Of a stretch of DNA of 33,801 nt, positions 6,102 to 25,123 are shown in pieces. The position numbers and the translations under genes are program-made. How positions within the stretch are numbered: the stretch's first letter is position 1; the number at the start of each line of letters is the position of its first letter. The notes below the pieces were generated by a model. It had not been told where the DNA came from. It did no database searches and saw only the letters and a program-made list of their open reading frames with translations. Source of the stretch: Chlorobiaceae bacterium (lineage in GTDB: Bacteria; Bacteroidota; Chlorobiia; Chlorobiales; Chlorobiaceae); NCBI GenBank assembly GCA_016927285.1, contig JAFGMZ010000084.1, forward strand, positions 1-33,801, written 5' to 3'.

Positions 6102-6144
6102 AAGAATGAAAAAAGGCTGCCGATGGCAGCCTTTTTTCATTCTT
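6102..6144. terminator. Bidirectional intrinsic terminator between bchU and the CoA-transferase gene
   Basis: A perfect 20-bp stem with a GAT loop. The GC-rich inner part GGCTGCC/GGCAGCC is flanked by A6 on one side and T6 on the other, so both strands end in a U tract. It serves two convergent genes: bchU stops 44 bases to its left and the CoA-transferase gene stops 14 bases to its right. Confidence 0.93.
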
Positions 6145-6158
6145 CTGTACTTGTTCCG

Positions 6159-7486: not shown

Positions 7487-8779
7487 TCAGCTGCCGTTGT
7501 TTTTCCTGCGAAGATATGCCGGAAGTTCTGTAAGTCCTTTTTGTATCTGGTCTTCCTGCTCATCGACGCTCCGGGAGAGATTTGTGCCGTTATCGGCACT
7601 CTGCTCAAGGCGCTTTTTCATGCCAACTTCAAGAGGATCATGTATGGAAATCTGACGCCGAATATAGGTGGGAATCCGCAGATCCTCCTCCTGCTTTTCG
7701 GGCAGACCGGTTACAACAGAGCGAACTGTGCGGGAAACCGGCCCCTGGCGATGCTCGTTGAACTTCGAAATCGACATACCTTTGTCCGTACCGGAAGGCT
7801 CAAGGGAATCTGTGCGCCTAAACCCGGTAACGATGACAGTCACCCGGATCTCTCCGCTGATCTGCGGTTCATCGACATAGCCATTGATAATTTTTGCCTC
7901 ACCGCCGACCTGCTCTTCGATAAAGTTCATTGCATCGGTCATATCCCTCATGGTGACTTCCCCTGTGATATTGACCAGCACCCCTTTTGCGCCTCTTACC
8001 GAAACTCCTTCGAGCAATGGACTGTTAAGGGCGTCTGAAGCGGCTTTCAGTGCCCTGCGCTCGCCTGCCGAGGCAGCCGAACCCATCACGGCGTCTCCGG
8101 CACCAGACATGATGCTTTTGACGTCAGCAAAATCCACGTTGACATGGCCGTGCCGGGTAATGATATCGGCGATGCCTTTTGCCGCACGGTACAGGACATC
8201 ATTAGCCATATTAAAGGCTTCCGTTGCGCTGACACCGTCTTCAGCTATACTGAGAATTTTCTCGTTCTCGACGACAATCAGGGTATCGATGAATTTCCGC
8301 AGCTCATTGATGCCGCCATCAGCTATACGCGCTTTTACCTGACCTTCGAAGTTGAACGGCCGGGTCACGACGCCAATGGTAAGAATGCCCATGTTCCTCG
8401 CTATCGAGGCAATAACCGGTGCTGCGCCAGTCCCTGTGCCTTTACCCATACCTGCCGCGATAAAGACCAGATCGGCACCCTTCAACTGCGCGGCAATTAT
8501 ATCACGATCATCTTCAGCTGCCTGCCTGCCTTTCGAAGGATCGGCTCCGGCTCCAAGACCACTGGTAGCCTTCTTGCCTATCTGCACCCGTATCGGGGCC
8601 TTGGAGTTCAGAAGTGCCTGGCGATCGGTATTGAAAACGATATATTCCGCACCGCTTATTTTCCGGTCTATCATATTGTTAACCGCGTTGCCGCCACATC
8701 CTCCGACTCCTACAATTCTGATGGTAACACCTTTTCCCTGATCGCTGTCGAACAGTCCCGGGTCCAGTTCAAATGCCAT
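7487..8779 (-). CDS. ftsZ: Cell division GTPase FtsZ
   Basis: FtsZ polymerises with GTP into the division ring. The tubulin signature is at 112-118 but reads GKGTGTG, with Lys113 where Gly is usual. The T7 loop NVDFADV (214-220) holds the catalytic aspartates, and [12 protein letters not shown] (25-36) starts the GTPase domain. The conserved domain ends near residue 320. The tail of about 110 residues contains two copies of the short peptide that usually occurs once at the C terminus and binds Fts[12 protein letters not shown] (366-376) and [10 protein letters not shown] (417-426). AGGA lies 8 nt before the ATG. It follows ftsA by 45 bases. Confidence 0.98.
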
Positions 8780-8824
8780 AGTTTCGTTCCTGATTATTCT
8801 TTCATGCGCCCTGAACGACGCTGG

Positions 8825-10150
8825 TTACAATTCGCTCCAGAATTTTTTCAGCCGGTCGACGATCTTTGCGCCCCCGGAATTCGATGGCGGCAAAGATGGC
8901 GCTGTTTCGGTTCCGCGAAGATGCTCATCCTCTCGGGAAGGCTTGATAACTGCTGGGGACCCCTGAACGACATGTCCCGCGCCGGGCTCTTCGAACAGAC
9001 TGTTCTGCAGAGAGTGCGCAACAAGCCCCATCACTGTCGCATACATAGGATTGTTGACCGACCCCTTGATACCTCCCGATACCCCTTCGGGATACCCGAT
9101 ACGAACATCGAGACCGAGGACATCTCTTGCAAGCTCTTCGGTCCCCGGCATAAGGGCGCCGCCGCCGGTAATTATAGCGCCGGCATTGAGAAATTCATAA
9201 TAACCCGACCGTTTGATGGAATCACGCACCAGCTCTAATATCTCAATCATTCTTGCCTCGATGATCATCGTCAGGGAACTCTTCGGAAACGATTTCTGCG
9301 GACGGCCTTCGATTCCCGGTATGAGAATGGTCTCATCTTCTCCGAGCATTTTGCTGTAAGCGCATCCGTGGCGGATTTTCAGCTCTTCTGCAACCTCATG
9401 CAGGGCCTTGACTCCATGTGCGACATCGTGCGTGACATCGTTTGCGGCTACTTTAATGACTTCTGAATACCGTATTGCGCCATCAATATAAATTGCCACC
9501 TCGGTTGTACCCCCACCGATGTCAATTACGACGACGCCGCTCTTTTTCTCGCTTTCTTTCATCACGGCGATACCGGAAGCGACGGGTTCAAAAGTCAGCG
9601 CACTGACATCGAGACCCGCTTTTTCAATACACTGCTTGATATTGCGAATCTTCGTGCGAAGCCCTACCACGATATAGGCGCTGCCGCGCATCGTGGTTCC
9701 CGCCATACCAATCGGATCAAGGACGCCTTCCTGGTCATCGACAATGAACTCCTGAGGAATCACATGAATGATTTCATGATCGATATCGAGGTACTTGATA
9801 TTTGTTTTTGCTTTTTCAAGAAAGCGCCGGACATCGGATTCATTGACGATCCCGGTCTGGTTTACGCTGATTTCGGAATTACTGTGTATACAGTTGACAT
9901 GAGCCCCCGAAATACCGACATTGACCCCCTTGATCCGTATCGATGATTCCCGTTCGGCATCCGCTATAGCCGCTTTGATGGCATCGACCGTCTTGTTGAT
10001 GTTGACGACTGTAGCTCGCTGGAGGCCTTCGGAATTGGAACGCCCCTTACCCAGAACATTGAGCTTTCCTATCTCGTCCTTTTCAGCAACGACCACACAG
10101 ACCTTTGTCGTGCCGATATCAAGTCCCACTGCTATATTGCTTTTCAGCAT
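8825..10150 (-). CDS. ftsA: Cell division protein FtsA
   Basis: FtsA is the actin-like ATPase that attaches FtsZ to the membrane. The phosphate-binding motifs are GLDIGTTK (9-16) and VIDIGGGTTEVAIY (about 207-220). The adenosine motif is ITGGGALMPG in the last third. The last residues (about 428-441, AKIVDRLKKFWSEL) form an amphipathic helix typical of the membrane anchor. At 441 residues it is slightly longer than the E. coli protein because of a Pro/Ser/Gly-rich linker before the anchor. It lies between ftsQ (23 bases) and ftsZ (45 bases). Confidence 0.97.
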   Translation of the reverse strand: MLKSNIAVGLDIGTTKVCVVVAEKDEIGKLNVLGKGRSNSEGLQRATVVNINKTVDAIKAAIADAERESSIRIKGVNVGISGAHVNCIHSNSEISVNQTGIVNESDVRRFLEKAKTNIKYLDIDHEIIHVIPQEFIVDDQEGVLDPIGMAGTTMRGSAYIVVGLRTKIRNIKQCIEKAGLDVSALTFEPVASGIAVMKESEKKSGVVVIDIGGGTTEVAIYIDGAIRYSEVIKVAANDVTHDVAHGVKALHEVAEELKIRHGCAYSKMLGEDETILIPGIEGRPQKSFPKSSLTMIIEARMIEILELVRDSIKRSGYYEFLNAGAIITGGGALMPGTEELARDVLGLDVRIGYPEGVSGGIKGSVNNPMYATVMGLVAHSLQNSLFEEPGAGHVVQGSPAVIKPSREDEHLRGTETAPSLPPSNSGGAKIVDRLKKFWSEL

Positions 10151-10173
10151 GATCCTCTATGCTTGCATGATTA

Positions 10174-11061
10174 TCACAGGGCCATATCCCGTTGTATTCC
10201 TGTAGTATCGATATCTCTGGTAAATACTCTGTCCCTGAACCTCAGATCGACAGAGTAAAATGCATCAAGCCCTTTCTTTGAAACAACCTTTTGCCAGAAT
10301 ATCTCGAATTTTTTCAACTTTTCCTTAAAGTTCCCGTCACTACCGACAACAAACCTGGCAGGCGAACCTGTTACCTTGCAGAAAATCAGCCCATCCTCTT
10401 CGAGATGGATTTCACGAATGAGCAGTTTTGCATATTCCGAATCTTTGAGAGCTGCAGTCAGATCCATAACCATCGCGCTGTCCCCGACAGAAAGCTGACC
10501 GAGTCCGTTCCTTGCCTGCACTGTCCTCCGAATACCAAAAACCCGGATCAGTTCAGGGTAACGCGAAACGACACGTTGCGTTTCGGGCAGTAACATTCCC
10601 TGCGCGTCGATGATCAGCTTTTTGTTCCGGTAAACGGTCCGGGCAACCGGTTCACGCTCCGTGACCCTTACCCTGATGATGCCGTTCAATTCACGGGCAA
10701 CAGAAATACCTTTGACATAGGGAATACCCAGCAGCTTCTCTTCGAGTTCGCCAGTATCTATACTTTGCAGATTTTTTCCGATATAGCTCTGCAGCAGGCT
10801 CGACAGATCGCTCCGACGAACAATATCGGTGCCTTCAATGACAACTTCACGGACGGCTACCGCCTGTTTCCACTGCGACGCATAGAAAGCAAGACCTCCA
10901 AGGCCTGCGAACACCAGCATTAAAATCACAAGTACGGCTTTCCAGTTTTCTCCGCCGTCCCCGGAAGGCTGGCTACCGCCCTCTTCGCCTCCGGAGTCGC
11001 TTAAACCGGACTCGGGAATTTCCGTGACCTGATAGTCCGGAACATGTTCAGAATCAGACAT
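10174..11061 (-). CDS. ftsQ: Cell division protein FtsQ/DivIB
   Basis: The 295-residue bitopic membrane protein has an acidic, Ser/Gly-rich cytoplasmic part (1-39) and one membrane helix (41-60). A POTRA domain (about 70-140, VREVVIEGTDIVRRSDL to VTEREPVA) and the FtsQ beta domain follow. It links early and late division proteins and partners FtsL. Its place between murC and ftsA is standard, though ddl, often found just before ftsQ, is absent. No clear Shine-Dalgarno sequence precedes the ATG. Confidence 0.93.
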   Translation of the reverse strand: MSDSEHVPDYQVTEIPESGLSDSGGEEGGSQPSGDGGENWKAVLVILMLVFAGLGGLAFYASQWKQAVAVREVVIEGTDIVRRSDLSSLLQSYIGKNLQSIDTGELEEKLLGIPYVKGISVARELNGIIRVRVTEREPVARTVYRNKKLIIDAQGMLLPETQRVVSRYPELIRVFGIRRTVQARNGLGQLSVGDSAMVMDLTAALKDSEYAKLLIREIHLEEDGLIFCKVTGSPARFVVGSDGNFKEKLKKFEIFWQKVVSKKGLDAFYSVDLRFRDRVFTRDIDTTGIQRDMAL

Positions 11062-11164
11062 CTGGATGGTTCATTTCGGTAATCTGACGAAGGCAGGTCC
11101 GACTCCGGCGACTTCTGGTTAGTGCTGCAGAACCGCACGGAAGATATCCTAACCTAAACAACAG

Positions 11165-11188
11165 CCTGAAACAGCCTGCCGTTTCAGG
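11165..11188. repeat. Stem-loop in the murC-ftsQ gap
   Basis: CCTGAAAC and GTTTCAGG are perfect complements across an 8-nt loop, in the 153-base gap that is the longest within the dcw cluster. The 8-mer ACAGCCTG also occurs twice (11161 and 11171). No T-run follows on the minus strand, so it is not a classical terminator. It could stabilise or process the message. Confidence 0.4.
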
Positions 11189-11214
11189 AATATGCAATAA
11201 AAGGAAATATCCTC

Positions 11215-12606
11215 TCACCGGCTTTCGAGCTCATGCGCCAGCCTGGTGGCCATGCGGGTAATATCTCCCGCGCCCATGAACAGCAGCAGCCCACCTTCAT
11301 GGCAGTAAGCTCTGAGCGCATTGTAGAGGTCCTCGCTGTCCGGAATGAAAACGGCAGGCTTTCCTCCCGATTTGCGTACCGCTTCGGCCACCATCTCTGC
11401 GGTAACTCCCGGAAAATCTTCCGCTTTTTCACGGGAAGGATAAATATCTGCTATAAAAATGCTGTCTGCATGAGAAAGCGCCCACCCGTATTCATCGGAA
11501 AATTCCTGCGTTCTCGAATAGAGGTGGGGCTGAAAAACCGCAACAATTCTGGAATCCGCCCATCCGCTCCGGGCAGCTTTAACGGCGGCCTTGACTTCGG
11601 ATGGATGGTGAGCATAGTCATCGACTATCATAAGCCCGCTTCCGTTATCGAATTTAATCTGGAAACGCCTTCTCATGCCGCTGTACCGACCCAGACCTGC
11701 GATCAGTTTTTCCGGTGCCAGATCAAGTTCGAGCCCGGTTGAAAAGGCCGCCAGAGCATTGAGTACATTATGCCTGCCCGGAACCTGCAACGTCACCCGC
11801 TCGTAACGATTTCCGAAGGCGTTGACGGCAAACGAAGTACGGTTACGCTCCATGAGTATGTCCGTGGCCATCACGTCGGCGGGCTCATCGATTCCGAAGG
11901 TCATGACCCGACGATTGAGCCTGGGGATGATTTTCCTGATTTCAGGCCAGTCGGCACAGCAGATAACCCGTCCGTAAAACGGCACCTTATCGGCAAAAGC
12001 GACAAAAGCGTTTTTAAGCTCGTCCAGCGAGCCATAGGTATCCATGTGCTCCGATTCAAGGCTGTTGACGACGGCGATGGTCGGCGTAAGTTTGAGAAAT
12101 GCCCTGTCGTATTCGTCGGCCTCTATGATCATATACTTTCCCTCGCCGACAACCGAGCTCCCTTTGAGATAGTCGGAAACTCCCCCGATCATAACCGTAG
12201 GCGACTCCCCCGACTCTATGAGCATAGTGGCAACCATGGCGGTCGTCGTGGTTTTACCGTGCGTACCGGAGATACAGATTCCGTACTTGTAGCGCATGAG
12301 CTCGCCAAGCATCTCATCCCGTTTGATGACCGGTATACCGGATTTTTCCGCAGCTGCAATTTCCACGTTTTCCGTTTTTCTGACCGCAGAAGAGTACACC
12401 ACAACATCGGCGCCTGCCAGATGCTCCTCGCTGTGTCCCCGGTAAACAACCGCGCCATGCTCGGCAAGTTTATCGGTCACCTCTCCGGACTGCAGATCCG
12501 AACCGCTGACACTGAAGCCGGATTTCAGCAGCAGTTCGGCGATTGCGCTCATTCCGGCGCCGCCTATTCCTACAATATGCACCCTTCTTGTTTTTCCGAG
12601 CTCCAT
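11215..12606 (-). CDS. murC: UDP-N-acetylmuramate--L-alanine ligase MurC
   Basis: MurC adds L-Ala to UDP-MurNAc with ATP in the cytoplasm, the first step of the stem peptide. The UDP-binding GIGGAGMSA is at 13-21, the ATP loop GTHGKTTTT at 114-122, and DDYAHHPSE is in the C-terminal domain. The open frame continues 112 codons upstream inside murG, but homology starts at [13 protein letters not shown]. That places the ATG at 12606, ten bases after the murG stop codon, and gives 463 residues, the usual size. There is no clear ribosome site, so translation may be coupled to murG. Confidence 0.96.
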
Positions 12607-12616
12607 GGAGATCTGA

Positions 12617-13711
12617 CTAAATGTTAGCAAGTTGAATAATTCGCTCCGCCAGCAACCGTGCCGCATCGGGATGGGCAAGCGCATGACATGAAACAGACAT
12701 GGCGTCGAGACGTCCGGAATCATGGAGCAGATCAAACACAATCTGCTTCGCTCCGGGCGTTTCAAGACGACTGTCATCGATAAGCATTGCCGCTCCGGAA
12801 CGAACAAGCGCTTTGGCATTGAAGCGCTGATGGTCCCCTGTTGCATACGGATAGGGAACAAGCACGGAAGGCTTCCCCATATTGGTAAGCTCGGCGATTG
12901 TCGAGGCCCCCGCCCGGCATACGACAAGATCCGAAACCGCATAAGCGTCTCCCATATTTTCGATATAGGGGCCGATCCATAGCCGTCCTGAAGGCTTGAC
13001 CTGACTGCTTATCCGGTCATAATCGAGGGCGCCGGTCTGCCATATGAGGTTAGTTCCTGATGAGAACTCTTCAAGCCATTGAAGCGCCGCATTGTTGATG
13101 GAGCGGGCACCTCGACTGCCACCGAACACGAGAAGCGTCGGCAACGGTTCCTGAAGACCGAAACGCATACGGGCCTCCTCGCTGCCGACAGGCTGAAACG
13201 ACCTCGCCGGATTTCCGGTTACGAAAACCCCCTTTTTTCTCCTGATATAACCTTTTGCCTCACTGAAAGAGAGATGTATTTCGCCGGCAAGAAGGGAGAG
13301 CAGTTTGGTAGTCACTCCGGGAAATGCATTCTGTTCCTGTATGAGCGTCCTTCGTCCCATGAGTTGCGCGGCAAGCAGCATGGGTGCGCTTGCGAACCCG
13401 CCGGTACCGACAACGACATCAGGCTTCTCTCTGCCTATGATCGAAGATGCGGAAACGAGCGCGCCGGCAAAATCCGCAAGTACGCCGACATTGCTGATAA
13501 TCGCCCGGAAGGATCCGCCCCGTTTCAGTCCCCTGACGGGAAGCAGATGCAGCCGGTAACCCATTCGGGGAATCTCTGTTGCTTCAATACCGTTTTTCGT
13601 CCCGGCAAACGAGACGGATGCGCCGGGAACAAGTTTCAGCAACTCGCCTGCCATGGCAACCGCCGGGTAGAGATGACCGCCGGTTCCTCCTCCTGCAAAA
13701 AGGACGTTCAA
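12617..13711 (-). CDS. murG: Lipid II synthase MurG (GlcNAc transferase)
   Basis: MurG transfers GlcNAc from UDP-GlcNAc to lipid I on the inner membrane face, giving lipid II. The 364-residue GT-B protein has the first glycine loop [11 protein letters not shown] (7-17), the second loop [11 protein letters not shown] and the UDP site [12 protein letters not shown]. It starts with TTG: a GGAGG site lies 6 nt upstream, and the TTG overlaps the ftsW stop as TTGA. This arrangement suggests tightly coupled translation. Confidence 0.96.
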
Positions 13712-14907
13712 GACAATCCTCCCTGCTGTTTTTCAGAAACAGTTTCCAGCTCCACGTTTCTCTTTCTGTACCTCGATATACTGATCAATATGCCTACTCC
13801 AAGTGAATTGAATACCAGCGCCGTACCTCCATAACTGATGAAAGGCAGGGCTACGCCTGTTGTCGGCAGCAGATGGGTGGCTACGGCGATGTTGATAAAC
13901 GCAAAAAGCACGATCGCTATGGTAATACCGCAGGCAACGAACTTGCCGAAATTATCCGGAGCATGCTTTGCTATTATAAGCCCGCATACAAGAAAAGCCG
14001 AAAAGAGAAACAGCACAGCCAGAGCCCCGATAAATCCGTATTCCTCGCCAATAATGACAAAAACGAAATCATTGTATGAAAGCGGCAGATACAGATCACG
14101 CTGTTTGCTGGCACCTATGCCCAGTCCGAAAAGACCGCCATTGCCAAGTCCTATAAGCGCCTGAAGCACCTGATAGCTCATGTTCTTCTCATCACCGCTG
14201 AAAAATGAAACGAGCCGGGCAACACGATATGGCGCAACCATGGCATACACCGCACCGACAGGAATAACGAGCGCTGCGGTTGCAAGCAGATAGCGAATGT
14301 TGACCCCGCCGATAAACATCATGATGAACCCGATAATTGCAATAAGTGACGCCGTACTGAAATTCGGTTCGAGTGCGATCAGGGCAACAACCGTCATCAG
14401 AATGACGACAAGCGGAAGATAGGTATTGTGCAGATCCTTGATGTAAGCCTGCTTCTCGCTGATCAGGCGGGAGAAATGGAATATCAACGCGTATTTGGCG
14501 AAATCAGACACCTGAAACTTCAAGGGCCCATACCCTATCCAGCGCGCAGCTCCCGAAATCACCCCGATGACTTTCAGAATAAGCAAAAGCGCAAGCAAAA
14601 AAACGCTGACCCCAAGAAAAATCTTGCTGACCTTGCAGAATATGTGATAATCGAGCCTGGCAAAAAAGACGATAGTCAGAATACCGATAAACGAAAAGAA
14701 CAGTTGCCGCCAGAGAAAGTATTCCGAGTTGGAGTACTTATTTTCCGCCCAGCTGGCACCGCTGCTGTAAACGACCACGATTCCGATGCAGATGAGCAAC
14801 GAAACGATCAGTAGCATCAGCTTGCCTGCTATGACCTCCCCGCGGGAACTCGCCCTGATTATCCGGCCGTTTTCTGCAGAACCGCCCGTTTGCACGCTCT
14901 CCATCAT
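13708..14907 (-). CDS. ftsW: Septal peptidoglycan polymerase FtsW (SEDS family)
   Basis: The 399-residue SEDS protein has about ten membrane helices and a 30-residue polar N terminus. It polymerises lipid II glycan strands at the septum with FtsI. Typical blocks are YHIFCKVSK after helix 2, GPLKFQVSDFAKYALI, and near the end LLPTTGVALPFISYGGTALV, the SEDS signature. The C-terminal end is basic. The ATG overlaps the murD stop as ATGA, and the stop overlaps the murG start. Confidence 0.96.
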   Translation of the reverse strand: MMESVQTGGSAENGRIIRASSRGEVIAGKLMLLIVSLLICIGIVVVYSSGASWAENKYSNSEYFLWRQLFFSFIGILTIVFFARLDYHIFCKVSKIFLGVSVFLLALLLILKVIGVISGAARWIGYGPLKFQVSDFAKYALIFHFSRLISEKQAYIKDLHNTYLPLVVILMTVVALIALEPNFSTASLIAIIGFIMMFIGGVNIRYLLATAALVIPVGAVYAMVAPYRVARLVSFFSGDEKNMSYQVLQALIGLGNGGLFGLGIGASKQRDLYLPLSYNDFVFVIIGEEYGFIGALAVLFLFSAFLVCGLIIAKHAPDNFGKFVACGITIAIVLFAFINIAVATHLLPTTGVALPFISYGGTALVFNSLGVGILISISRYRKRNVELETVSEKQQGGLS

Positions 14908-16298
14908 AACTTCAGCTCAAGTGTAAGGTGCTTGAAAAGCCTGCCCCGTTCCTCGAAATTCGCAAACATATCAAAACTCGCACATCCGGGAGAAAACAGC
15001 ACGGTATCTCCGCAACATGCGGTTTTTCTTGCCAGATCAACCGCATCTTCAAGCGTTCCGGCGCGGAGCGTCCGGGTTATACCTTCGAATGCCCGGCATA
15101 TTTTTTCTCTCGACTCGCCGATGGCCACTATCGCAGCAACCTTGCTGCGCACAACATCGACAAGCCCGGAATAGTCGTTACCCTTGTCACGCCCTCCGGC
15201 TATCAGTACAAGCCTGCCGGGCACGGCGTTAAGCGCCTGGAACAACGCATTGACATTGGTCGCTTTAGAATCGTTGATCCAGTCGACGCCGTCAAGGGAA
15301 CGCACGAACTCCTGACGGTGCTCGACCCCCGGAAATCCGGATAGCGTCACCCGTAACGCCTCCCTGTCGATGCCAAGGGAAAATGCGGCGGCGGTTGCAG
15401 CAAGCACGTTGTAGATATTATGCCTGCCACGGAAACTGTTTTTAAGAAATTCCTCAGCGGCGACAACCGGATAGGGAATGCCGTCTTTCCAGTGCAGTAT
15501 AAAGCTGCCGTCGAAAGAAAACGCCTCTCCCGAAGCGTGCCGGACGGCATCCTCGCCAATACCGAACGGAATAAGCCGGAAGGGATATGCCCCGGCTCCG
15601 TTGCAGAAATGCTCCCTGAGCAGGGGATCGTCAACATTGTAACAAAGAGCATCCGTCTGCTGCTGCTGACGATAAATCCTGTATTTCGCTTTGGCATACT
15701 CCCGTATGTCGCCATGGTACCGGTCAAGATGATCGGGTGTGATATTGGTGATAACCGATACGACAGGATGGAAACTCGTGCATCCTTCGAGCTGGTAACT
15801 GCTCAGCTCGATGATGGCAAGATCATCCGGTGCAAGCGAAGGCACGACAGCGGAGAATGGCACTCCGATATTTCCGGCGCTGACGGCAGTGTAACCCCGC
15901 GTTCTACCGTCCTCTTCGGCGATGCAATGCAGGAGCGTCGCCGTAGTGGTTTTTCCATCGGTGCCGGTAATGCCGGCCATTTTCGCCCTGCAGAACCATG
16001 ATGCCGCTTCGATTTCGCTGAAAAGCGGGATTCCTTTCCAGAGTACCATGCGGACGACGTCCGACTCGCGAGGAATTCCCGGACTGACGACAACCAGATC
16101 GGCATCGCAGAGACGGCCGGTATGCCCTCCCTCTTCATAATCGATACCAAGCCCCGACAAGAGCGTTTTTTCATCACCGGACAACTGAGCGAGTTCGCTC
16201 ACGAACACAGATGCGCCCCTTGCCGAAAGCAGCACAGCCGCAGCCATGCCACTTCTTTTGGCGCCGATAACCGATATTTTTTTCCCTTTTACCTGCAT
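14904..16298 (-). CDS. murD: UDP-N-acetylmuramoylalanine--D-glutamate ligase MurD
   Basis: MurD adds D-Glu to UDP-MurNAc-L-Ala. The 464-residue protein shows the N-terminal nucleotide fold VIGAKRSGMAAA (10-21), the ATP loop GTDGKTTT (112-119), and VEHRQEFVRSLDGVDWINDSK marking the start of the C-terminal domain. It begins ten bases after the mraY stop codon without a strong ribosome site, and its stop overlaps ftsW. Confidence 0.96.
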   Translation of the reverse strand: MQVKGKKISVIGAKRSGMAAAVLLSARGASVFVSELAQLSGDEKTLLSGLGIDYEEGGHTGRLCDADLVVVSPGIPRESDVVRMVLWKGIPLFSEIEAASWFCRAKMAGITGTDGKTTTATLLHCIAEEDGRTRGYTAVSAGNIGVPFSAVVPSLAPDDLAIIELSSYQLEGCTSFHPVVSVITNITPDHLDRYHGDIREYAKAKYRIYRQQQQTDALCYNVDDPLLREHFCNGAGAYPFRLIPFGIGEDAVRHASGEAFSFDGSFILHWKDGIPYPVVAAEEFLKNSFRGRHNIYNVLAATAAAFSLGIDREALRVTLSGFPGVEHRQEFVRSLDGVDWINDSKATNVNALFQALNAVPGRLVLIAGGRDKGNDYSGLVDVVRSKVAAIVAIGESREKICRAFEGITRTLRAGTLEDAVDLARKTACCGDTVLFSPGCASFDMFANFEERGRLFKHLTLELKL

Positions 16299-16310
16299 AG
16301 TGCGGCGTTA

Positions 16311-17417
16311 CTACCTGAGTTTCAATGTCATGAGACTTGCAAGAAAGAACAGAACGGTGATAATCCAGAACCTGATGACAATTTTCTGTTCTGGCCAGCC
16401 TTTCAACTGGAAGTGGTGATGCAGCGGAGCCATGAGAAAAATCCTGCGCCCCTGACCGTATCGCATCTTCGTATATTTGAACCAGAGCACCTGCAGAGAA
16501 ACCGACAGTGTTTCGATAAAGAAAATTCCTGCCAACACGGGTAGAAGCAGCTCCTGTTTGATGAGAAGGGCAATAACGGCAATGGCGCTTCCCAGAGCAA
16601 GCGACCCTGTATCTCCCATGAATACCTCCGCAGGATTCGAATTGAACCAGAGAAAACCCACGCAAGCCATCACGATTGCCATGCTGACCACGGCAATTTC
16701 CCCGCCGCCGGGAATAAATGGAATTTTGAGATAAGACGCATAAACCGCATTTCCGCCAAGATAGGCGAAACCGCCGAGAGCAAATACAACGATAGCGGAA
16801 CTTCCCGAGGCAAGACCGTCAAGACCGTCGGTAAGGTTGACCGCATTGGAGACCGCCGTGATGATGAAAATCACGACAGGAATATAGAAAATTCCGTAAT
16901 CGATCGTGAGATTTTTGAAGAACGGCACTGTCGTGGTGGAACGAAGCACCGAAAACGCCGGATCGTACCATGTGTAAAGGCCGATAACGAGTCCGAGCGC
17001 TATCTGACCGATGAGTTTATACTTCGGAGAAAGTCCGCCCTTGACCTTCAGTACGACTTTCATATAATCGTCAAGAAAGCCGATGGCGCCCATCCAGAAA
17101 ACCGCGAGCATGATCAACCAGACATGAGGGTCGTCGAAGCGCGCCCACAAAAACACCGACAGCTCGATCGCGATGATGATGAGCAGGCCACCCATAGTGG
17201 GAATATCCTTCTTCTTACGATGTTCCGGCGGCGCCTCTTCTTTAACCGGCTCTATGATACGACCCTTCAGATACCTTATGAACCATGGACCGAAAACAAG
17301 ACAGATGAGAAGCGCCGTTACCGCAGCCGCGCTCGCCCTGAAGGTAAGAAACTCGATAACACCGAGACCCGGGGGGTCGAAGACGTCATTGATATATTTC
17401 AGAATATAATACAGCAT
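16311..17417 (-). CDS. mraY: Phospho-MurNAc-pentapeptide transferase MraY
   Basis: MraY moves phospho-MurNAc-pentapeptide onto undecaprenyl phosphate, making lipid I in the membrane. The 368-residue protein has about ten membrane helices. Its catalytic aspartates are in LDDYMK (115-120) and in [12 protein letters not shown] (194-205) followed by [11 protein letters not shown] (266-276). The HHHFQLKGW loop (333-341) and KKDIPTMGG (69-77) are also diagnostic. It follows murF by 17 bases. Confidence 0.97.
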
Positions 17418-17434
17418 TCAGACTGAAACGTTGA

Positions 17435-18853
17435 TTATTGAGATACTCGTTCATCGCACAGGACATTGGCCGCCTCATCGAGCCGCATGCCCCTCGATCC
17501 CTTGAAAAGCACGACATCCCCGGGACGCACCATATCGAGAAGCGCTTTCGACAGCTCTTCGCGATTTGCATAATGTCCGTATGCACGGGCCTCGTTTCCC
17601 GAAACATAACCCCGGGCCAGATCGCCGATAGTCAGAAGCAGGTCGATCGTACTCCGTTGAATATACCTGCCGATCTTATCATGCTCAAGTGCTCCGGAAT
17701 TCCCGAGCTCGAGCATATCGCCGAGCACGGCTATTTTTCTGCCCGGGCACGACAGCTCATCGAGGAGATCGATGGCATAACGTACCGAATCCGGATTGGC
17801 ATTATAGGTATCGTTGATAATGGTAACGCCTCCCGCCTTCCTGTATTCCATCCGTTTCCAACCGGATGCGGGATGCAGGTTTTCCAATCCTTCCCTGACT
17901 GCTGCAAGGGCAAGCCCGAAATACGACCCGACAGCTGCTGCAGCAAGCGCATTGATGACGTTATGGCGGCCTGTCAGACGAAGCGTAACGAAGTGGCGCT
18001 TACCTCCGGAACAGAGAAAAAACGTAGCCCTCCCGTATTCGTCAAGACCGATTTCTTCGACATGTGGAACCTGCTCACCAAATTCGTCGAGGCCATAGAG
18101 CACCGTGCGCCGAAGACCTGCTGCCGCCTTTTTCAACCGGGCGTCTCCTGTATTGACAAAACAGATACCCCCATTGCTGTCGAGATACTCATAAAGCCGG
18201 GTCTCGGCATCGGCAACGCCGTCGAGATCGCGCAGAAACTCCAGATGCTCATGGCCGATATTGGTGAGCAGACCATGAGTAGGCTTGGCGATGGAGGCAA
18301 GCAGCTCCATTTCCCCGGGATGGTTTATTCCCATCTCGACGACCGCAATCTCGGTATCGCGTTTGATCTGCAGAAGGGTGAGCGGCACGCCAAGATGATT
18401 ATTCAGGTTCCCTTTGCTCATATGCACCCGGAATCCGGTAGCGAGAACCGATGCGACAAGTTCCTTCGTGGTGGTCTTTCCATTGCTCCCGCCAACGGCG
18501 ACTACCGGAATAGCAAATGTATCGCGATAAGCCGAAGCAAGCCGCTGCAGCCCCTTGACCGTATCCGGAACAACCAGATAACGCCTGCGTCCCATACCGG
18601 GATCAATCGGATGCAATGCGTACCAATCCTCTGAAACGACCGCCCATGAGGCGCCTTTCGAAAAAACTTCGTCTATATAGCGGTGAGCGTCGGTACGCTC
18701 GCCGCAAAGAGCGACAAAGACGTCGCCATCCGCTATTACCCGGGAGTCGATGACGACGCACGGTTCATCCATCTCCGGAGACTCATCGCCATACCCCGAG
18801 ACAACTATAGTTCCGATCCTTCTCAGATCGGATTCACTGAGAATTCCTTTCAT
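17435..18853 (-). CDS. murF: UDP-MurNAc-tripeptide--D-alanyl-D-alanine ligase MurF
   Basis: MurF adds D-Ala-D-Ala to complete the pentapeptide. The ATP loop is GSNGKTTT (122-129). MGINHPGEMELLASIAKPTHGLLTNIGHEHLEFL is the central-domain block, and NDTYNANPDS with VLGDMLELG are typical of the C-terminal domain. At 472 residues the length is usual. The gene lies between murE (11 bases) and mraY (17 bases). Confidence 0.96.
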   Translation of the reverse strand: MKGILSESDLRRIGTIVVSGYGDESPEMDEPCVVIDSRVIADGDVFVALCGERTDAHRYIDEVFSKGASWAVVSEDWYALHPIDPGMGRRRYLVVPDTVKGLQRLASAYRDTFAIPVVAVGGSNGKTTTKELVASVLATGFRVHMSKGNLNNHLGVPLTLLQIKRDTEIAVVEMGINHPGEMELLASIAKPTHGLLTNIGHEHLEFLRDLDGVADAETRLYEYLDSNGGICFVNTGDARLKKAAAGLRRTVLYGLDEFGEQVPHVEEIGLDEYGRATFFLCSGGKRHFVTLRLTGRHNVINALAAAAVGSYFGLALAAVREGLENLHPASGWKRMEYRKAGGVTIINDTYNANPDSVRYAIDLLDELSCPGRKIAVLGDMLELGNSGALEHDKIGRYIQRSTIDLLLTIGDLARGYVSGNEARAYGHYANREELSKALLDMVRPGDVVLFKGSRGMRLDEAANVLCDERVSQ

Positions 18854-18864
18854 GCGGATTTACC

Positions 18865-20409
18865 TTAACCTTGCGTTAACCGATCGTCACGAAAACACTC
18901 CCTGAGCATTTCCTGATCTGAGAAATAATGCTTTTTTCCGGCTATTTCCTGATAGGTTTCATGACCTTTTCCCGCGACAAGGAGCACATCATCTGACCGA
19001 AGAGATGCGACCGCCTGACGAATTGCATCGGCCCTGCATGATATGCGCTTGTAGGAAACACCCGATATACCCTGCTCAATCGCATCCAGAATGGTCTCCG
19101 GATCCTCATTCCTTGGGTTGTCGGATGTAATGTAAACGAAATCGGCATAGTCGGATGCTATTCGTCCCATCAGCGGACGCTTTGTCGTATCCCGATTTCC
19201 GCCACATCCGAAAACAACGACAAGGCGACCGGGCGGCGTCGTGAGCTCCCTGAGCGTACACAGCGCCTTTTCAAGCGCATCGGGAGTATGCGCATAATCG
19301 ACGAATCCACATCGACCAGTAACCTCATCCCATACTCGCTCCATTCTTCCAGGGACGCTGAAAGGTTTCCGCAACGCTTCGGCTACCTCCCCGGATGTCA
19401 TCCCCATACCTGACCCCACAGCCGCAGCTTCAAGCAGATTCATAGCATTATACTTTCCCGGGAGCTCAGTCTGCAGCGCACTTGTTTCATCGGGAAAATG
19501 CAGTTCGAGCATTGTGCCGATAACCTTGCGTTCTTTTACTGAAACGGAAAATCGCTTTCCGCAAGAGAGCATCTCCCTGCTGTCTGGCTGCATGGAGCAG
19601 CAGAAGCGACGATCCTCCGGCACCCGCGATGCCATGAATGCCGAATAAGGGTCGTCGCTGTTAATAACAGCAAACCCGTCGGGTTCGAGCTGGTCGAACA
19701 AGAACTGTTTCGCTCTGGCATACTCGTCGAGGGTGTGATGAAAGTCGAGGTGGTCCACGCTCAGATTGGTGAACACCCCGCATCTGAACCGAAGGGCGTA
19801 TACCCTGTCAAGCACAAGGGCATGTGAAGATACTTCCATGACCGCTGCGACGCATCCCTCTTCAAGCATGCCGAAAAAAAGCGCCTGAAGTTCATGTGCT
19901 TCGGGAGTGGTCCGCTCAAGCAGGATATCTCTCGATCCTATCCGGCAGAGCCCGGTACCAATATACGCAGCGGGAATCCCACCTGCATTGAGCATTCCGG
20001 CAATCAGCCTGGCCGTTGTAGTCTTGCCGTTGGTTCCGGTCACGCCGATCAGCATAAGTCGATCGGACGCATAAGCATAAAAAACCCTGGCCGCCTCGGC
20101 AAGGGCTTTTCTCGCGTCTGCAACCAGTATGAAGAGCACCCCTGAAACAGGATGCATCGGCAGCGTTTCGCAGATAACCGCAACAGCTCCATTGCGAATG
20201 GCTGTATCGATAAAGGCGTGACCGTCCGCGACAAAACCCCGGATTGCGACGAACAGCGACCCTGGACCGGACTCCCTTGAATCAGCAGTAATCGTTATTG
20301 CCGTAAGACTGGCAGGATCGGGACCCGAAAGCTCAAGAAATCCGATCAGTCCCAGCAGATCGGCAAGCCGCACGGGGGCGGGGGGCCTGGAATAAATACT
20401 CTCTTGCAT
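18865..20409 (-). CDS. murE: UDP-MurNAc-tripeptide synthetase MurE (meso-DAP type)
   Basis: MurE adds the third residue of the stem peptide. DNPR near 431-434, in the sequence SDNPRNEDPE, is the known signature of enzymes that use meso-diaminopimelate rather than lysine. The ATP loop is GTNGKTTT (about 126-133), and VDYAHTPDAL is in the C-terminal domain. Two starts are possible: the ATG at 20409, which shares one base with the ftsI stop as TGATG, or the GTG one codon upstream at 20412, which has slightly better spacing (7 nt) to AAGGA. The protein has 514 or 515 residues. Confidence 0.96.
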   Translation of the reverse strand: MQESIYSRPPAPVRLADLLGLIGFLELSGPDPASLTAITITADSRESGPGSLFVAIRGFVADGHAFIDTAIRNGAVAVICETLPMHPVSGVLFILVADARKALAEAARVFYAYASDRLMLIGVTGTNGKTTTARLIAGMLNAGGIPAAYIGTGLCRIGSRDILLERTTPEAHELQALFFGMLEEGCVAAVMEVSSHALVLDRVYALRFRCGVFTNLSVDHLDFHHTLDEYARAKQFLFDQLEPDGFAVINSDDPYSAFMASRVPEDRRFCCSMQPDSREMLSCGKRFSVSVKERKVIGTMLELHFPDETSALQTELPGKYNAMNLLEAAAVGSGMGMTSGEVAEALRKPFSVPGRMERVWDEVTGRCGFVDYAHTPDALEKALCTLRELTTPPGRLVVVFGCGGNRDTTKRPLMGRIASDYADFVYITSDNPRNEDPETILDAIEQGISGVSYKRISCRADAIRQAVASLRSDDVLLVAGKGHETYQEIAGKKHYFSDQEMLRECFRDDRLTQG

Positions 20410-22430
20410 CACAAAATCGTCCTTTTCCCGACAGCCGAAACCAGCTTGACCCTGACAATGCCTGATTGTGCAGTTTTAGAGCCCGGTTTGATATGTTGGG
20501 AACCGACAATGCCATCTGCGGCGCCGCTCGACTTCATATCAAGTCCGATCCATTTCAGCAGCCTCCGGGCATCATCAGCCTTCATACCCTTGAGATCGGG
20601 AACAACAACGGTTGTCGTCGAGTCGATGACCGCCTGCTCAGGGGATCTGAAAGCGAGATTTTTTTGTAGCTCTTCAGAGCATGAAAGCATTCTCGATGCT
20701 ATACTCGAAAATACGGGGGCAGCAACCGTTGATGCATAATAAACCGTTCGCGGTTCCTCAACAAGCACAATGAGTGCATAGCGTGGCGACTCGACAGGGA
20801 AATACCCGACAAAAGAAGAAACATAGACCGCATTGGCGTAGGAACCACCGGAAGCCCTCCTTGCCGTCCCGGTTTTTCCGGCCACGCTCATACCTGGAAT
20901 CGCTGCATTTCTGGCCGTTCCGCTGTCAACGACCGCCTTGAAATACTCCTTCCCCAAATACCTGGCCGTCTCGGGAGAAACGACCTTCATTACCGCTTTC
21001 GGCCGATGTTCAAGTATGGTCCTGCCTTCGGTATCGATAATACTTTTAACCAGATAAGGCTTCATCCTCACCCCGTCATTCGCTATCGTCGCATAAGCCT
21101 GCAGAATCTGCAGGGGTGTCACCATCACCTGGTAACCATAACCCATCCAGGGCAGCGTCGTCTTATCCCAATTTTTCAGCGGTCTTACCCGACCCGGGGA
21201 TTCCCCAAGCAATCCGATGCCGGTTTTCGAACCGAAGCCAAAATTCCTCGTATAGGAATGGAATTTTTCCCGTCCTGTTTCCATGGCGGTCTTGGCTGCA
21301 ATGACATTACTTGAGTGCATAATCGCTTCACGAAAAGTGATCTCTCCATAGGACTCATGATCCCTGATTCGCAAACCAAAAAGCGGCAGCACACCATTAT
21401 GGGCAAAAACCCGATCTTCAGCTTTTCGCCCGAGCACTTCAGTAGCCGTTGCCGCCATGAGTATCTTGAAAGTTGATCCCGGTTCGAAACTATCGGTAAC
21501 TGACCGGTTGCGGGATTTCTCCGGCGTCCATGTAACCCTGCGATTAAGATCGAACGACGGGTTATTGGCCATTGCAAGAATTTCACCGGTACGCACATCC
21601 ATCACGATACCTGTTGCTGCGCTCGCCTGGACACGACCGACAGTTGCGGCAAGCTCGTCCTCGACAATACTCTGGATATCGGCATCGATCGTCAACCTGA
21701 GAGTATGGCCTTTTATAGGATCAAGCTGCAGAGCATCCGGTGCAGGATAACGTTTTCCCGTTGCAGAACGCTGGAAAACTCTTGATCCGTCACGTCCCCT
21801 GAGATAACGATCATATTGCAGCTCAAGACCGCTTATACCGCTGTTCCTGCTGTCGGTCACGCCAATAACCTGTGCTGCGACATTAAGATAATAACGCTGT
21901 TGCTCCCTGTCGAACCAGACCCCGGGAATTTTTTTCTGCATCAGCGGCAAAGCCTTTACTGCGGAAACCTTTCGGCCAAGAACAGCAAGCCGTTTTTCCT
22001 TTCTGAGTTTTTTCAGATAATAAGGCCGACCTTTGCCAAGATGCTCTGAAAACAGTCTTGCCACCTCTCCCGAATTATCGAATGTCTTCTGTTTTCCTGA
22101 GCGGCGATCGGTCACCGGTTTCCCTTTTTCATTGAAAAGCGGAGTATTCCTGACGATTTGCGGATCTGCATAAAACGAAATCGTTTCAACGGTTTCCGCA
22201 AGCATCCTTCCGTGACGATCGAGAATGACGCCTCGTTGCGATTTTTCAGTGACAAGCCGGATATATTGCCTTTCTGCCTTACCCTGATACTTCCTGACAT
22301 TGATAATCTGAATGTTCAGCAACATGACGATAATGCCGACAAGAAACAGAACAAAAAAAACCACAACAAGTACAAGTCGTTTGCTGAACTCGGAATCCGG
22401 CGGCTTCTGCGATAAATCTCGATCACTCAT
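20409..22430 (-). CDS. ftsI: Septal transpeptidase FtsI (PBP3 class) with a PASTA domain
   Basis: This class B penicillin-binding protein cross-links septal peptidoglycan. After a cytoplasmic tail, one membrane helix (about 19-41) and the dimerisation domain, the transpeptidase motifs are complete. They are Ser319-Thr-Phe-Lys322 (nucleophile), Ser373-Ser-Asn375 and Lys519-Thr-Gly521. Residues about 607-665 form a C-terminal PASTA domain (VVVPDLKGMKADDARRLL), absent from the E. coli protein and known from Spo VD/PBP2x-type relatives. It works with FtsW, encoded in the same cluster. The ribosome site is weak. Confidence 0.95.
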   Translation of the reverse strand: MSDRDLSQKPPDSEFSKRLVLVVVFFVLFLVGIIVMLLNIQIINVRKYQGKAERQYIRLVTEKSQRGVILDRHGRMLAETVETISFYADPQIVRNTPLFNEKGKPVTDRRSGKQKTFDNSGEVARLFSEHLGKGRPYYLKKLRKEKRLAVLGRKVSAVKALPLMQKKIPGVWFDREQQRYYLNVAAQVIGVTDSRNSGISGLELQYDRYLRGRDGSRVFQRSATGKRYPAPDALQLDPIKGHTLRLTIDADIQSIVEDELAATVGRVQASAATGIVMDVRTGEILAMANNPSFDLNRRVTWTPEKSRNRSVTDSFEPGSTFKILMAATATEVLGRKAEDRVFAHNGVLPLFGLRIRDHESYGEITFREAIMHSSNVIAAKTAMETGREKFHSYTRNFGFGSKTGIGLLGESPGRVRPLKNWDKTTLPWMGYGYQVMVTPLQILQAYATIANDGVRMKPYLVKSIIDTEGRTILEHRPKAVMKVVSPETARYLGKEYFKAVVDSGTARNAAIPGMSVAGKTGTARRASGGSYANAVYVSSFVGYFPVESPRYALIVLVEEPRTVYYASTVAAPVFSSIASRMLSCSEELQKNLAFRSPEQAVIDSTTTVVVPDLKGMKADDARRLLKWIGLDMKSSGAADGIVGSQHIKPGSKTAQSGIVRVKLVSAVGKRTIL

Positions 22431-22473
22431 TGCCCAATGCTCTCACTGGTTTAATCCTTACACTCCTTAGACG

Positions 22474-22977
22474 TTATGGAACAATTTCGACTGCTGGCTC
22501 ACGAGAAGCCTGCAGGCCGAGAAGCTCGGCCTGCAGGGCGATATTGTGAATGCCCTGCAGTTCATTCACCTTGAGTTCCTGGGATGTGACCACGCTCGAG
22601 CTCATGGCTATCTGCTCCCTGAGCGTTTCATTTGCAAGGGCAAGTTTCTGTATCGCTATGGTATTATATATCTGAACAAGAAAGATTCCGGTTAATGGAA
22701 GCAGATACAAAAAAGTCCGCAAACGAAGAAGATCTGAAAGCCGGAATTCGAAAGCGCGTCCGAACAGTTCTCTTAATCCGCCTTGATCCGAACTTGAAAA
22801 TACAGGGGATTCTGACGGCTCCCTGTCGCCGACAGACCCTGAAGCCCTCATCCGGCCCTGTACGGCGGGATGTTCGCGATCATCATTCTGATTGCTCTGC
22901 CCCCGGTCGAGCACATCATTGAATACGCCCGGCAGAACGGTCCGGGTTACAAGTCGATCTGAATCATATGGGCTCAC
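22474..22977 (-). CDS. ftsL: FtsL-like division protein
   Basis: The name rests on position between rsmH and ftsI and on topology, because FtsL sequences diverge fast. From the chosen start the protein has 167 residues. A polar cytoplasmic part of about 85 residues is followed by one membrane helix (LRTFLYLLPLTGIFLVQIYN) and then an extracytoplasmic helix with coiled-coil character. I start at the GTG ending at 22977 because AGGAG lies 6 nt before it. This gives a 14-base overlap with rsmH. The open frame continues upstream to 23067, which would force a 104-base overlap. The cytoplasmic part is longer than in E. coli FtsL. Confidence 0.8.
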   Translation of the reverse strand: MSPYDSDRLVTRTVLPGVFNDVLDRGQSNQNDDREHPAVQGRMRASGSVGDREPSESPVFSSSDQGGLRELFGRAFEFRLSDLLRLRTFLYLLPLTGIFLVQIYNTIAIQKLALANETLREQIAMSSSVVTSQELKVNELQGIHNIALQAELLGLQASREPAVEIVP

Positions 22978-23956
22978 CGGTATCTCCTGCTGCAAGTTTT
23001 TCAAGAACCCTGAGCTTTGCACTCCTGGCTCTCGGATTCGACGATAGTTCCTGTTCTCCTGCGACAATTGCTCTCCTGGTTACGATACTGAACCCCGCTT
23101 TTCTGAGCGGCTCCCTGAGCCCAACTCCCTTCGGGCCCCAATCGCTGCGTGCCTGCTCGACAAAAAAGGACTTGACCATCCTGTCCTCGAGCGAATGATA
23201 ACTGATGACGGCAAGCCTTCCGAGCGGAGAAAGCAGCGCGGTGCTTTGTTCCAGTACCCGGGCAAGTACATCAAGTTCGCGGTTCACTTCGATCCTGACG
23301 GCCTGGAAAATCCGCGAAAGCGTCTTGATAGCGCGGTCGGGCCGCGCTTCGCGTCGCCGGATAATATCGGCAAATGTCTCGGTACGCAAAATCGGGCCAT
23401 ACCGTTCCCGGTAATCGACGACGCTCCGAGCAATACTCCTGCTCCGAGGCTCTTCGCCAAACCGGTAAAAAAGGTTCGCAAGCTCCCGTTCGCTCATGGC
23501 ATTGATGATATCGGCAGCGCTTTTTTCTGCGGCTGGATCCATACGCATATCGAGCGGACCCTGATGCAGATAACTGAATCCCCGCTCCGGAGAATCAATT
23601 TGCGCCGATGATACCCCGAGATCAAGCAGCATACCCGCCACGACAGGCGGTCTCTGGTTTTCGATGCATACCCGCTGAACAATCTTTTGCAGATCGCCGA
23701 AATTGCCTTTCACAAAAACGAGCCTGCCCGAATAAGATGAGAGCCTCTTTTCTGCAGCATCAAGCGCATTATCATCCTGATCGATGCCGATGACCAGTGA
23801 CTGCTCTGCAAAATCCCTTCTGAGCAGTTCCTGCAGGATTGCATGAGAATGTCCGCCGCCGCCAAGAGTGCCGTCAACATAGACCCCGGGTATTTTCACG
23901 AGCAACTTCGGTATTTCAGCGACAAGCACCGGCTCATGATATCCTTTTACGATCAT
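22964..23956 (-). CDS. rsmH: 16S rRNA (cytosine-1402-N4)-methyltransferase RsmH
   Basis: RsmH (MraW) methylates N4 of C1402 in the 30S decoding site. The SAM motif is DGTLGGGGHSHAI (28-40), and YHEPVLVAEIP (6-16) is the classical N-terminal block. GMLLDLGVSSAQID and GRLAVISYHSLEDRMVK are also typical. The frame is open further upstream, but homology starts at MIVKGYHEPV, so I use the ATG at 23956, four bases after the mraZ stop codon. An AGGAGG lies 13 nt away inside the mraZ end. The protein has 330 residues. Confidence 0.96.
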   Translation of the reverse strand: MIVKGYHEPVLVAEIPKLLVKIPGVYVDGTLGGGGHSHAILQELLRRDFAEQSLVIGIDQDDNALDAAEKRLSSYSGRLVFVKGNFGDLQKIVQRVCIENQRPPVVAGMLLDLGVSSAQIDSPERGFSYLHQGPLDMRMDPAAEKSAADIINAMSERELANLFYRFGEEPRSRSIARSVVDYRERYGPILRTETFADIIRRREARPDRAIKTLSRIFQAVRIEVNRELDVLARVLEQSTALLSPLGRLAVISYHSLEDRMVKSFFVEQARSDWGPKGVGLREPLRKAGFSIVTRRAIVAGEQELSSNPRARSAKLRVLEKLAAGDTGEPI

Positions 23957-23960
23957 TATT

Positions 23961-24407
23961 TTAAAAAAACCTCCTGGCAAGTGAGGAAAACCGTTCGATA
24001 TTCCCCTCCAGCAATGCATGAAGCCTTCCGGGCTCCCAGATTACCAGTTTCGTATCGGCACCCATGATGAGAGCATCCTTTTCAATTCCCGCATGATCGA
24101 GACTCTCCCGCGAAAGCGCTATCCGGCCCTGCCGATCAACGGCGACAATATCGAGACTCTCGTAGAGCATGGTTTTCAATAGTCGTTCATCAGGATTGAA
24201 ATCAGAAAGTCCGGCCAGCGCGATTTTTGTCTGCTGCCAGATTTCAGGCTCGTACAGCTCAAGAGAACCGTCTGGAGCTTTCATCAGATAAAGATATATT
24301 CCTTTCGAAGATGCCGAAGGGAAAAAATCCCTTCGAAACCGGACCGGAATCATCAATCGGCCCTTGTCATCGAGAGCGTGCAACTCCTTGCCGATAAATC
24401 CAGCCAT
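23961..24407 (-). CDS. mraZ: Transcriptional regulator MraZ
   Basis: MraZ is the AbrB-like DNA-binding protein that controls dcw operons, acting as a repressor in E. coli. The two swapped-hairpin repeats carry the diagnostic DxxGR motifs: DDKGRLMIP at 13-21 and DRQGRIALS at 91-99. The open frame extends 72 codons upstream, but homology starts at MAGFIGKELHALD, giving 148 residues, the normal size. No Shine-Dalgarno sequence is seen. It is the first gene of the cluster, and about 107 bases upstream lie three TGGGN-type repeats expected to be its own binding site. Confidence 0.95.
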   Translation of the reverse strand: MAGFIGKELHALDDKGRLMIPVRFRRDFFPSASSKGIYLYLMKAPDGSLELYEPEIWQQTKIALAGLSDFNPDERLLKTMLYESLDIVAVDRQGRIALSRESLDHAGIEKDALIMGADTKLVIWEPGRLHALLEGNIERFSSLARRFF

Positions 24408-24500
24408 GAAAGCATAATTCCGGAAACGGTTAGAACTACTGCAGACGGTAATGACAGACCTGAGACCTGCGAAATGAAGAAAAAAAATAAAACAGCAAAA

Positions 24501-24521
24501 CAATGGGAAAAAATCCCATTG
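24501..24521. repeat. Inverted repeat in the mraZ leader
   Basis: CAATGGGA and TCCCATTG pair across five A. One arm contains the last TGGGA of the MraZ box, so the other arm is the same half-site inverted. On the minus strand the stem is followed by a T-rich tract (TTTT, then T8 further on), so a weak attenuator is also possible. Confidence 0.5.
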
Positions 24522-24538
24522 TTTACCATTTTGTCCCA
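24514..24538 (-). promoter_or_regulatory. MraZ-binding box (three TGGGN-type repeats)
   Basis: The minus strand reads TGGGA, CAAAA, TGGTA, AACAA, TGGGA: three 5-nt repeats with 5-nt spacers, hence a 10-bp period. Two match TGGGN exactly and the middle one has one change. This is the arrangement described for MraZ operators upstream of dcw clusters. It lies between the candidate -10 element and mraZ. Confidence 0.75.
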
Positions 24539-24544
24539 CAAAAA

Positions 24545-24573
24545 AATGTATGCAAAAAGCCAGCACCAAACAA
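24545..24573 (-). promoter_or_regulatory. Candidate promoter of the dcw cluster (Pmra)
   Basis: The minus strand reads TTGTTT, 17 nt, TACATT. The expected start of transcription falls at the first repeat of the MraZ box, so bound MraZ would block initiation. The hexamers match the sigma-70 consensus only in part (3 and 4 of 6). The call leans on position. Confidence 0.4.
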
Positions 24574-24625
24574 ATATCTATCTCTTTTACACTTCGTTTT
24601 TTTGCGCCATCCGCCGCACACAACC

Positions 24626-25123
24626 ATGAACCATCCCGAAATTATCATCGACGGGTATAACCTTCTGCATAAACTTTTTCCTTCGGTAAGCCGCACGAAT
24701 CTTGCGCTGCATCGAAACAAAACCGAATCCCTGCTGAATAGATATCAGAAACAGCGAAAAAGCACGATTACCGTCGTCTATGACGGCGGAGGCGTCCGCG
24801 AATCGTCGGAAGGATCCTCGCTGTCCATCGTTTACACTGCTTCATCAAAAAGCGCCGACAACTGGATAATCGATTACGTAAAATCGTTGAACACAAACAG
24901 AAAAATGGTTACTATTGTAAGTTCGGACCGCGAAGTGTGCCGGTATGGGCTTGCCTTTGGGGCAAAATGCATGTCTTCAGAGGAGTTCATTGCGATTCTT
25001 TCCCCAGGTAAACGTCAGCGCAATCCCTGCTGCCCGGTTGCGGAACGTAAATTCAGCGAAGGATTTCTGGACAGCAATGAAGTGGACCAATGGAAACGTC
25101 TGTTCCGGCATCGAAAACCATGA
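24626..25123 (+). CDS. YacP-like NYN-domain protein, probable ribonuclease
   Basis: The 165-residue protein belongs to the YacP/Rae1 NYN (PIN-like) family. It shows IIIDGYNLLHKL near the N terminus with the metal-binding Asp, TVVYDGGGV in the middle, SADNWIIDYVK, and TIVSSDREVCRYG with a further acidic site. The Bacillus relative cleaves mRNA in the ribosome. The exact target here is unknown. The open frame begins further upstream, but homology starts at MNHPEIIIDGYN, so I use 24626. It is divergent from mraZ and shares its upstream region. Confidence 0.82.
   Translation: MNHPEIIIDGYNLLHKLFPSVSRTNLALHRNKTESLLNRYQKQRKSTITVVYDGGGVRESSEGSSLSIVYTASSKSADNWIIDYVKSLNTNRKMVTIVSSDREVCRYGLAFGAKCMSSEEFIAILSPGKRQRNPCCPVAERKFSEGFLDSNEVDQWKRLFRHRKP

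Follow-up and report, generated by a model that had tools for sequence, protein, structure and literature searches.

A candidate self-control operator of mraZ with a possible reversed fourth box in a Chlorobiaceae bacterium

Most bacteria build their division and cell-wall machinery from the dcw cluster, whose conserved regulator is MraZ. The locus described here lies in a 33,801-nt stretch of DNA from a Chlorobiaceae bacterium (the window), and it raises the question of whether the short repeats ahead of mraZ form an operator through which MraZ would control its own gene, and of which boxes belong to it. The first-pass annotation had proposed a promoter candidate followed by three 5-nt repeats with 5-nt spacers, and the minus strand from 24573 to 24514 agrees with this to the letter. 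The promoter candidate (24573-24545) consists of a -35-like TTGTTT (24568-24573), a 17-nt spacer and a -10-like TACATT (24545-24550); after 6 nt come box 1, TGGGA (24534-24538), box 2, TGGTA (24524-24528), and box 3, TGGGA (24514-24518), separated by CAAAA and AACAA. By sequence, the predicted boxes sit downstream of the -10 element and over the transcription start that would be expected from it, at about 24538, approximately 130 nt ahead of the mraZ start at 24407. The pattern TGGKA-N5-TGGKA-N5-TGGKA has a single site with no mismatch in the window, where shuffled sequences give a mean of 0.16 three-box sites at up to two mismatches, and a looser box pattern has one zero-mismatch site across the 1.93-Mb genome. 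The promoter candidate is not among the sites listed by a generic sigma-70 scan of the window and by hand count matches the sigma-70 consensus at 7 of 12 bases. It is thus a poor consensus match, and its support comes from its conservation in 83 Chlorobiaceae leaders.

That the first gene downstream is mraZ, as first annotated, is confirmed by an ATG at 24407 and a Pfam MraZ match (PF02381) with an E-value of 2.3e-18. The 148-residue product (23961-24407, minus strand) shares 28% identity with E. coli MraZ, and both DxxxR motifs are common to the two. Its predicted structure (pLDDT 86.9) aligns with M. pneumoniae MraZ 1n0e (Z 18.3, rmsd 2.5, 139 aligned residues), with M. genitalium 9r4j, titled as a promoter complex (Z 18.2, rmsd 2.4, 139 aligned), and with 9sz7, titled as a four-box promoter complex (Z 17.8, rmsd 2.5, 138 aligned); the model's other fold matches, to flagellar, chemotaxis and plant B3 domains, stay at Z 6.4 or lower, far under the MraZ entries. 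The rest of the dcw cluster follows on the minus strand (7487-23914) in the order rsmH, an FtsL-like ORF, ftsI, murE, murF, mraY, murD, ftsW, murG, murC, ftsQ, ftsA and ftsZ, with gene names assigned from domains and order. The count of 14 genes given earlier for the cluster was correct, 13 of them carrying Pfam domains and one, the ORF at 22474-23067, being FtsL-like by position only, with no Pfam match. The gap between murC and ftsQ is the widest in the cluster (153 nt) and contains a terminator-like hairpin of 10 pairs (11188-11165), so that ftsQ, ftsA and ftsZ may form a separate unit. We therefore propose control of at least the proximal dcw genes; the hairpin bears on whether an operator at mraZ would reach all 14. 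An acetyl-CoA hydrolase/transferase gene (6102-7451) begins 35 nt past ftsZ; behind this gene, a perfect 20-nt inverted repeat with a T-run is a likely transcript end. On the other side of the promoter candidate, a YacP-like NYN-domain gene (24626-25123, plus strand; Pfam PF05991) shares the intergenic region with mraZ; since the two genes are divergent, this region (24540-24626) may carry two promoters.

When other Chlorobiaceae are compared, as had been proposed, the array proves to be a constant feature of the mraZ leader. Among 86 Chlorobiaceae genomes, 84 have an mraZ match, and 83 leaders were examined, leaving out that of G083 (a 55-residue MraZ match with no start) and a second copy in G076. 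All 83 carry TAC[AC]TT followed after 3-7 nt by a period-10 array, the -10-like element being TACATT in 81 and TACCTT in two. Three RTGG boxes at period 10 are perfect in 74 leaders, one base off in eight and two off in one. The -35 element of the family is a run of six T at -23 to -18, with a 17-nt spacer, whose sole exception is a G at -21 in 2% of the leaders; the window has one such G inside the run. The boxes had been assigned to the TGGGN repeats with 10-bp period known for MraZ, and of this description the period stands and the unit does not: box 1 of the relatives is mostly GTGGT, the commonest form, GTGGC or GTGGA, and the consensus unit over the 83 leaders is therefore RTGGKRAAAA. 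Box 2 is TGGT in 56 leaders, and box 3 is TGGG in 75. In the 59 long leaders the box cores reach 2 bits of information (the T of box 2, 1.5 bits), and past box 3 the content is mostly below 0.6 bits. A genome-wide search with up to one mismatch gives the array pattern in 77 of 86 genomes against none of 86 for the reversed control; judging from coordinates, every site but one (G068:C23) is that at mraZ, making the pattern nearly unique to mraZ across the family. In a second genus of the family (L126-L145) the array adjoins the start codon of mraZ: nearly all of these leaders have box 1 30-31 nt ahead of the ATG, so that the promoter must be upstream of the array and box 3 falls where a ribosome-binding site would be expected.

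How does this layout compare with MraZ operators described elsewhere? For the dcw cluster of E. coli, the operator was reportedly described by Eraso et al. in 2014. The E. coli K-12 sequence has TTGACA and TAAACT, and between these and mraZ stand three GTGGG boxes at period 10. The window is alike in that three GTGG boxes with this period closely follow the -10-like element and lie directly before the gene; the Chlorobiaceae, too, keep the promoter before the array. The two differ in the -35 element, which is TTGACA in E. coli and a T-run in the window and its family, and in an inverted TCCCA, discussed below, which is present in the window and absent from E. coli. According to the accessible part of PMC7761207, B. 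cenocepacia MraZ binds a fragment with four period-10 repeats that lie past the -10 element and over the start site, the E. coli repeats being in the same position. By sequence, the window would share this placement, whereas the gel-shift binding belongs to B. cenocepacia, whose four 7-nt repeats have 3-nt spacers where the window has three direct boxes and one reversed. In the Mollicutes, MraZ of M. genitalium is a repressor whose motif occurs once, at mraZ, as stated in the portion available of PMC8475190, and the Mollicute site is given as (AAAGTGKN3)3 in that of PMC5282649. The GTG core, the period and the location at mraZ are like those of the window, whereas the core reads AAAGTGK there and RTGGKRAAAA in Chlorobiaceae; judging by its title, PDB 9sz7 is a structure of Mollicute MraZ on a four-box promoter. 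By analogy, the binding in B. cenocepacia and the repression in M. genitalium count for a self-control operator in the window. From every feature checked by sequence, the site appears to be of the known MraZ-operator kind with one variant feature, the reversed box. Conservation, near-uniqueness to mraZ and the E. coli layout together give the first-pass annotation's reading of self-control by MraZ good comparative support.

A different use of G-rich repeats has been proposed for S. aureus, where the available text of PMC11796246 reports a G-quadruplex element downstream of PmraZ. It is most improbable that the window array acts in this way. A quadruplex would need four GGG tracts, of which the array supplies two, besides a single GG and one CCC; box 2 is TGGT in the majority of relatives noted above, and a quadruplex does not require an exact 10-nt spacing.

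Many other families in the phylum likewise have such arrays ahead of mraZ. Outside Chlorobiaceae we kept 106 leaders from 30 families (f1 to f34 are family labels used as handles), which with the 83 above makes 189; duplicate loci were dropped (L155, L161, L166, L175 and L216), and some sampled genomes with MraZ (e.g. f12, f30 and G090) fall outside the leader set. The mraZ starts of these leaders were set by script, using a profile from these proteins and taking the in-frame ATG closest to the expected position, with GTG or TTG as second choice, so that their leader lengths are approximate; kinship among genomes lies outside the statistics, and per-family counts are therefore safer than per-genome counts. 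A two-box array is present in 91 of the 106 leaders and absent from 15. In family f15, 13 of 14 leaders (L179, L181-L183, L185, L186, L259, L261, L270, L281, L283, L292 and L294) have the word TTAT.[AC]ACA immediately ahead of their MraZ array; we take this word to resemble a DnaA box. A gene-blind scan of the phylum for the array pattern matched 52 of 148 genomes, and mraZ lies just downstream in 11 of the 14 non-Chlorobiaceae loci checked, MraZ being absent at the other three (L178, L180 and L190). The pattern is found in none of 11 sampled genomes lacking MraZ versus 52 of 137 having it (hypergeometric P 0.007, uncorrected for kinship). Eight of these 11 belong to one family, f19, in which all eight sampled genomes lack both MraZ and the array pattern, so the missing arrays do not represent many independent events.

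These distributions bear on whether the array might be read by a regulator other than MraZ, possibly one acting on the divergent YacP-like gene. Such divergence from mraZ is seen at 43 of 60 loci, and GTG-core direct repeats are also used by HsdC in Mollicutes, as reported in the part available of PMC5282649. However, the array stays with mraZ in the 17 of 60 loci that have no upstream YacP-like gene, and it is absent from the sampled genomes without MraZ, which leaves another regulator very unlikely.

The side on which the promoter lies differs among these families. Of the 91 array leaders, 48 from 16 families carry TTGAC on the upstream side and lack a perfect TAnnTTTG downstream. Another 23, from 6 families, lack the upstream TTGAC and carry TAnnTTTG 10-22 nt past the array; no leader combines the two orders, and 20 fit neither, where shuffled flanks give 1.8% for TTGAC upstream and 1.0% for TAnnTTTG downstream. 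The accessible portions of PMC9723704 and PMC7366714 describe TAnnTTTG as the -7 element of Bacteroidetes promoters, located at -12 to -5 in a flavobacterium. In Chlorobiaceae it occurs downstream of the array in one of 83 leaders. Judged from these elements, the operator seems to have been retained while the promoter switched sides.

The first-pass annotation had called the operator in the window complete. Its three direct boxes stand, and a further element in the same register had been overlooked. The word TCCCA (24504-24508, minus strand; TGGGA on the plus strand) starts exactly 10 nt past the start of box 3, so that it continues the register of the three direct boxes in the opposite direction. 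Together with box 3 it forms a perfect 11-nt inverted repeat with a 5-nt loop (24498-24524), of which one arm (24514-24524) is box 3 with its flank and the other (24498-24508) holds TCCCA. Is this reversed box part of the operator, a hairpin in the message or an accident?

The comparison of all 189 leaders shows that the word recurs at mraZ in other families. TCCCA at +10 from the last direct box occurs in 21 of them, from 8 families, and at any other offset between +5 and +30 in only seven cases (four at 19, two at 22 and one at 25); on the opposite flank, at -10, none of the 189 has it. Under the strict register rule used for these counts, four capped leaders of f7 and f34 are among those at offset 10. 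Among eight control words at +10, only CTCCA was found, once. Outside Chlorobiaceae the count is 20 of 106 leaders versus 0.08 expected from shuffled flanks, with none of 2000 trials reaching 20. A gene-blind scan for two direct boxes plus TCCCA found 37 sites in 36 of 394 genomes, against 4 of 394 genomes for the reversed control. Thirty of the 37 sites were fetched, of which 28 precede mraZ by 35-143 nt, and at the other two (L306 and L308) MraZ is absent from the fetched locus. Capped leaders mostly have two or fewer perfect direct boxes, and the cap may therefore stand in for a third box. A literature search whose coverage lacked most subscription papers turned up nothing on Chlorobiota MraZ operators and nothing on MraZ boxes in reversed orientation, which makes this absence weak evidence.

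The palindrome could instead act as RNA, as a 5'-end hairpin of the mraZ message serving attenuation, stability or translation control; its 5' arm would then be box 3 by chance, and the three direct boxes would not be concerned. The hairpin is strong in the window (z -3.95) and reaches z of -3 or lower in four other leaders (L102, L020, L019 and L023). In addition, all 21 capped leaders lack a downstream TAnnTTTG, so that capped arrays are probably transcribed. However, over 59 Chlorobiaceae leaders the mean z is -0.39 and the median 0.06, and a conserved leader attenuator was rejected for the family. An intrinsic terminator or attenuator at the palindrome was rejected as well: the scan lists 4 GC pairs in 11, and the relatives show no conservation. 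In a separate observation, four Chlorobium leaders (L019, L020, L102 and L112) have box 3 at the start of a hairpin followed by about 7-8 T, resembling a very early terminator. The capped leaders of other families also speak against an RNA role, since their spacing is fixed at +10 and since, of all 21 capped leaders, 11 keep TCCCA next to a box, TGTT or TGGTA, with which it would barely pair as RNA (0 to -0.6 kcal/mol). Retention of the word where RNA pairing is nearly nil favours a DNA site read in reverse, and we regard the RNA explanation as unlikely.

A more serious alternative concerns the window itself, where the reversed box might be the roleless chance product of a recent inverted repeat, with the operator consisting of the three direct boxes. 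Within Chlorobiaceae the leader in the window is the only one of 83 with TCCCA at +10 (0.04 expected; 76 of 2000 shuffles reach 1), and the box is absent in the closest relative, L004. With this single occurrence the box may be a coincidence, and the case for it is weaker in the window than in other families because the relatives lack TCCCA. The arms, moreover, reach beyond the box to a length of 11 nt, which is what an inverted repeat of recent origin would show. Against this, the box has the exact register and the exact word that are enriched at +10 in seven other families. We consider an accidental box a substantial possibility, although somewhat short of an even chance. For contact between MraZ and the reversed box, the comparisons leave the scales about level in the window, and they make such contact fairly probable in the phylum at large.

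Taking the evidence together, we think it very probable that the site is a self-control operator of mraZ. Start, MraZ binding and repression at this operator are inferred, as follows. RNA polymerase would start at about 24538, and MraZ rings would occupy the GTGG boxes over about +1 to +25, presumably on one face of the DNA, since the period of 10 bp is close to one helical turn. TCCCA would be a fourth MraZ contact, reversed, in the same register and on the same face. Bound MraZ would keep transcription of mraZ, and at a minimum of the proximal dcw genes, from starting, and would in this way limit how much MraZ and how much of the division proteins is supplied. Whether the phylum has two further operator designs, one with the reversed-box cap and one with the promoter on the opposite side of the array, we would put at even odds. 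In the cap design, which the window carries alone in Chlorobiaceae, MraZ rings would read both polarities, perhaps through two similar halves per subunit or through facing rings. In the opposite-side design, with TAnnTTTG 10-22 nt past the array, the operator would cover the -33 region, and MraZ might even activate.

By sequence comparison, these results extend the MraZ operator to the Chlorobiaceae and, beyond them, to a large part of the phylum. They also raise two puzzles, namely why some arrays end with a reversed box exactly one helical turn on, and how one operator would serve promoters on either side. Given that structures of MraZ with promoters exist, according to their entry titles, both puzzles look accessible.
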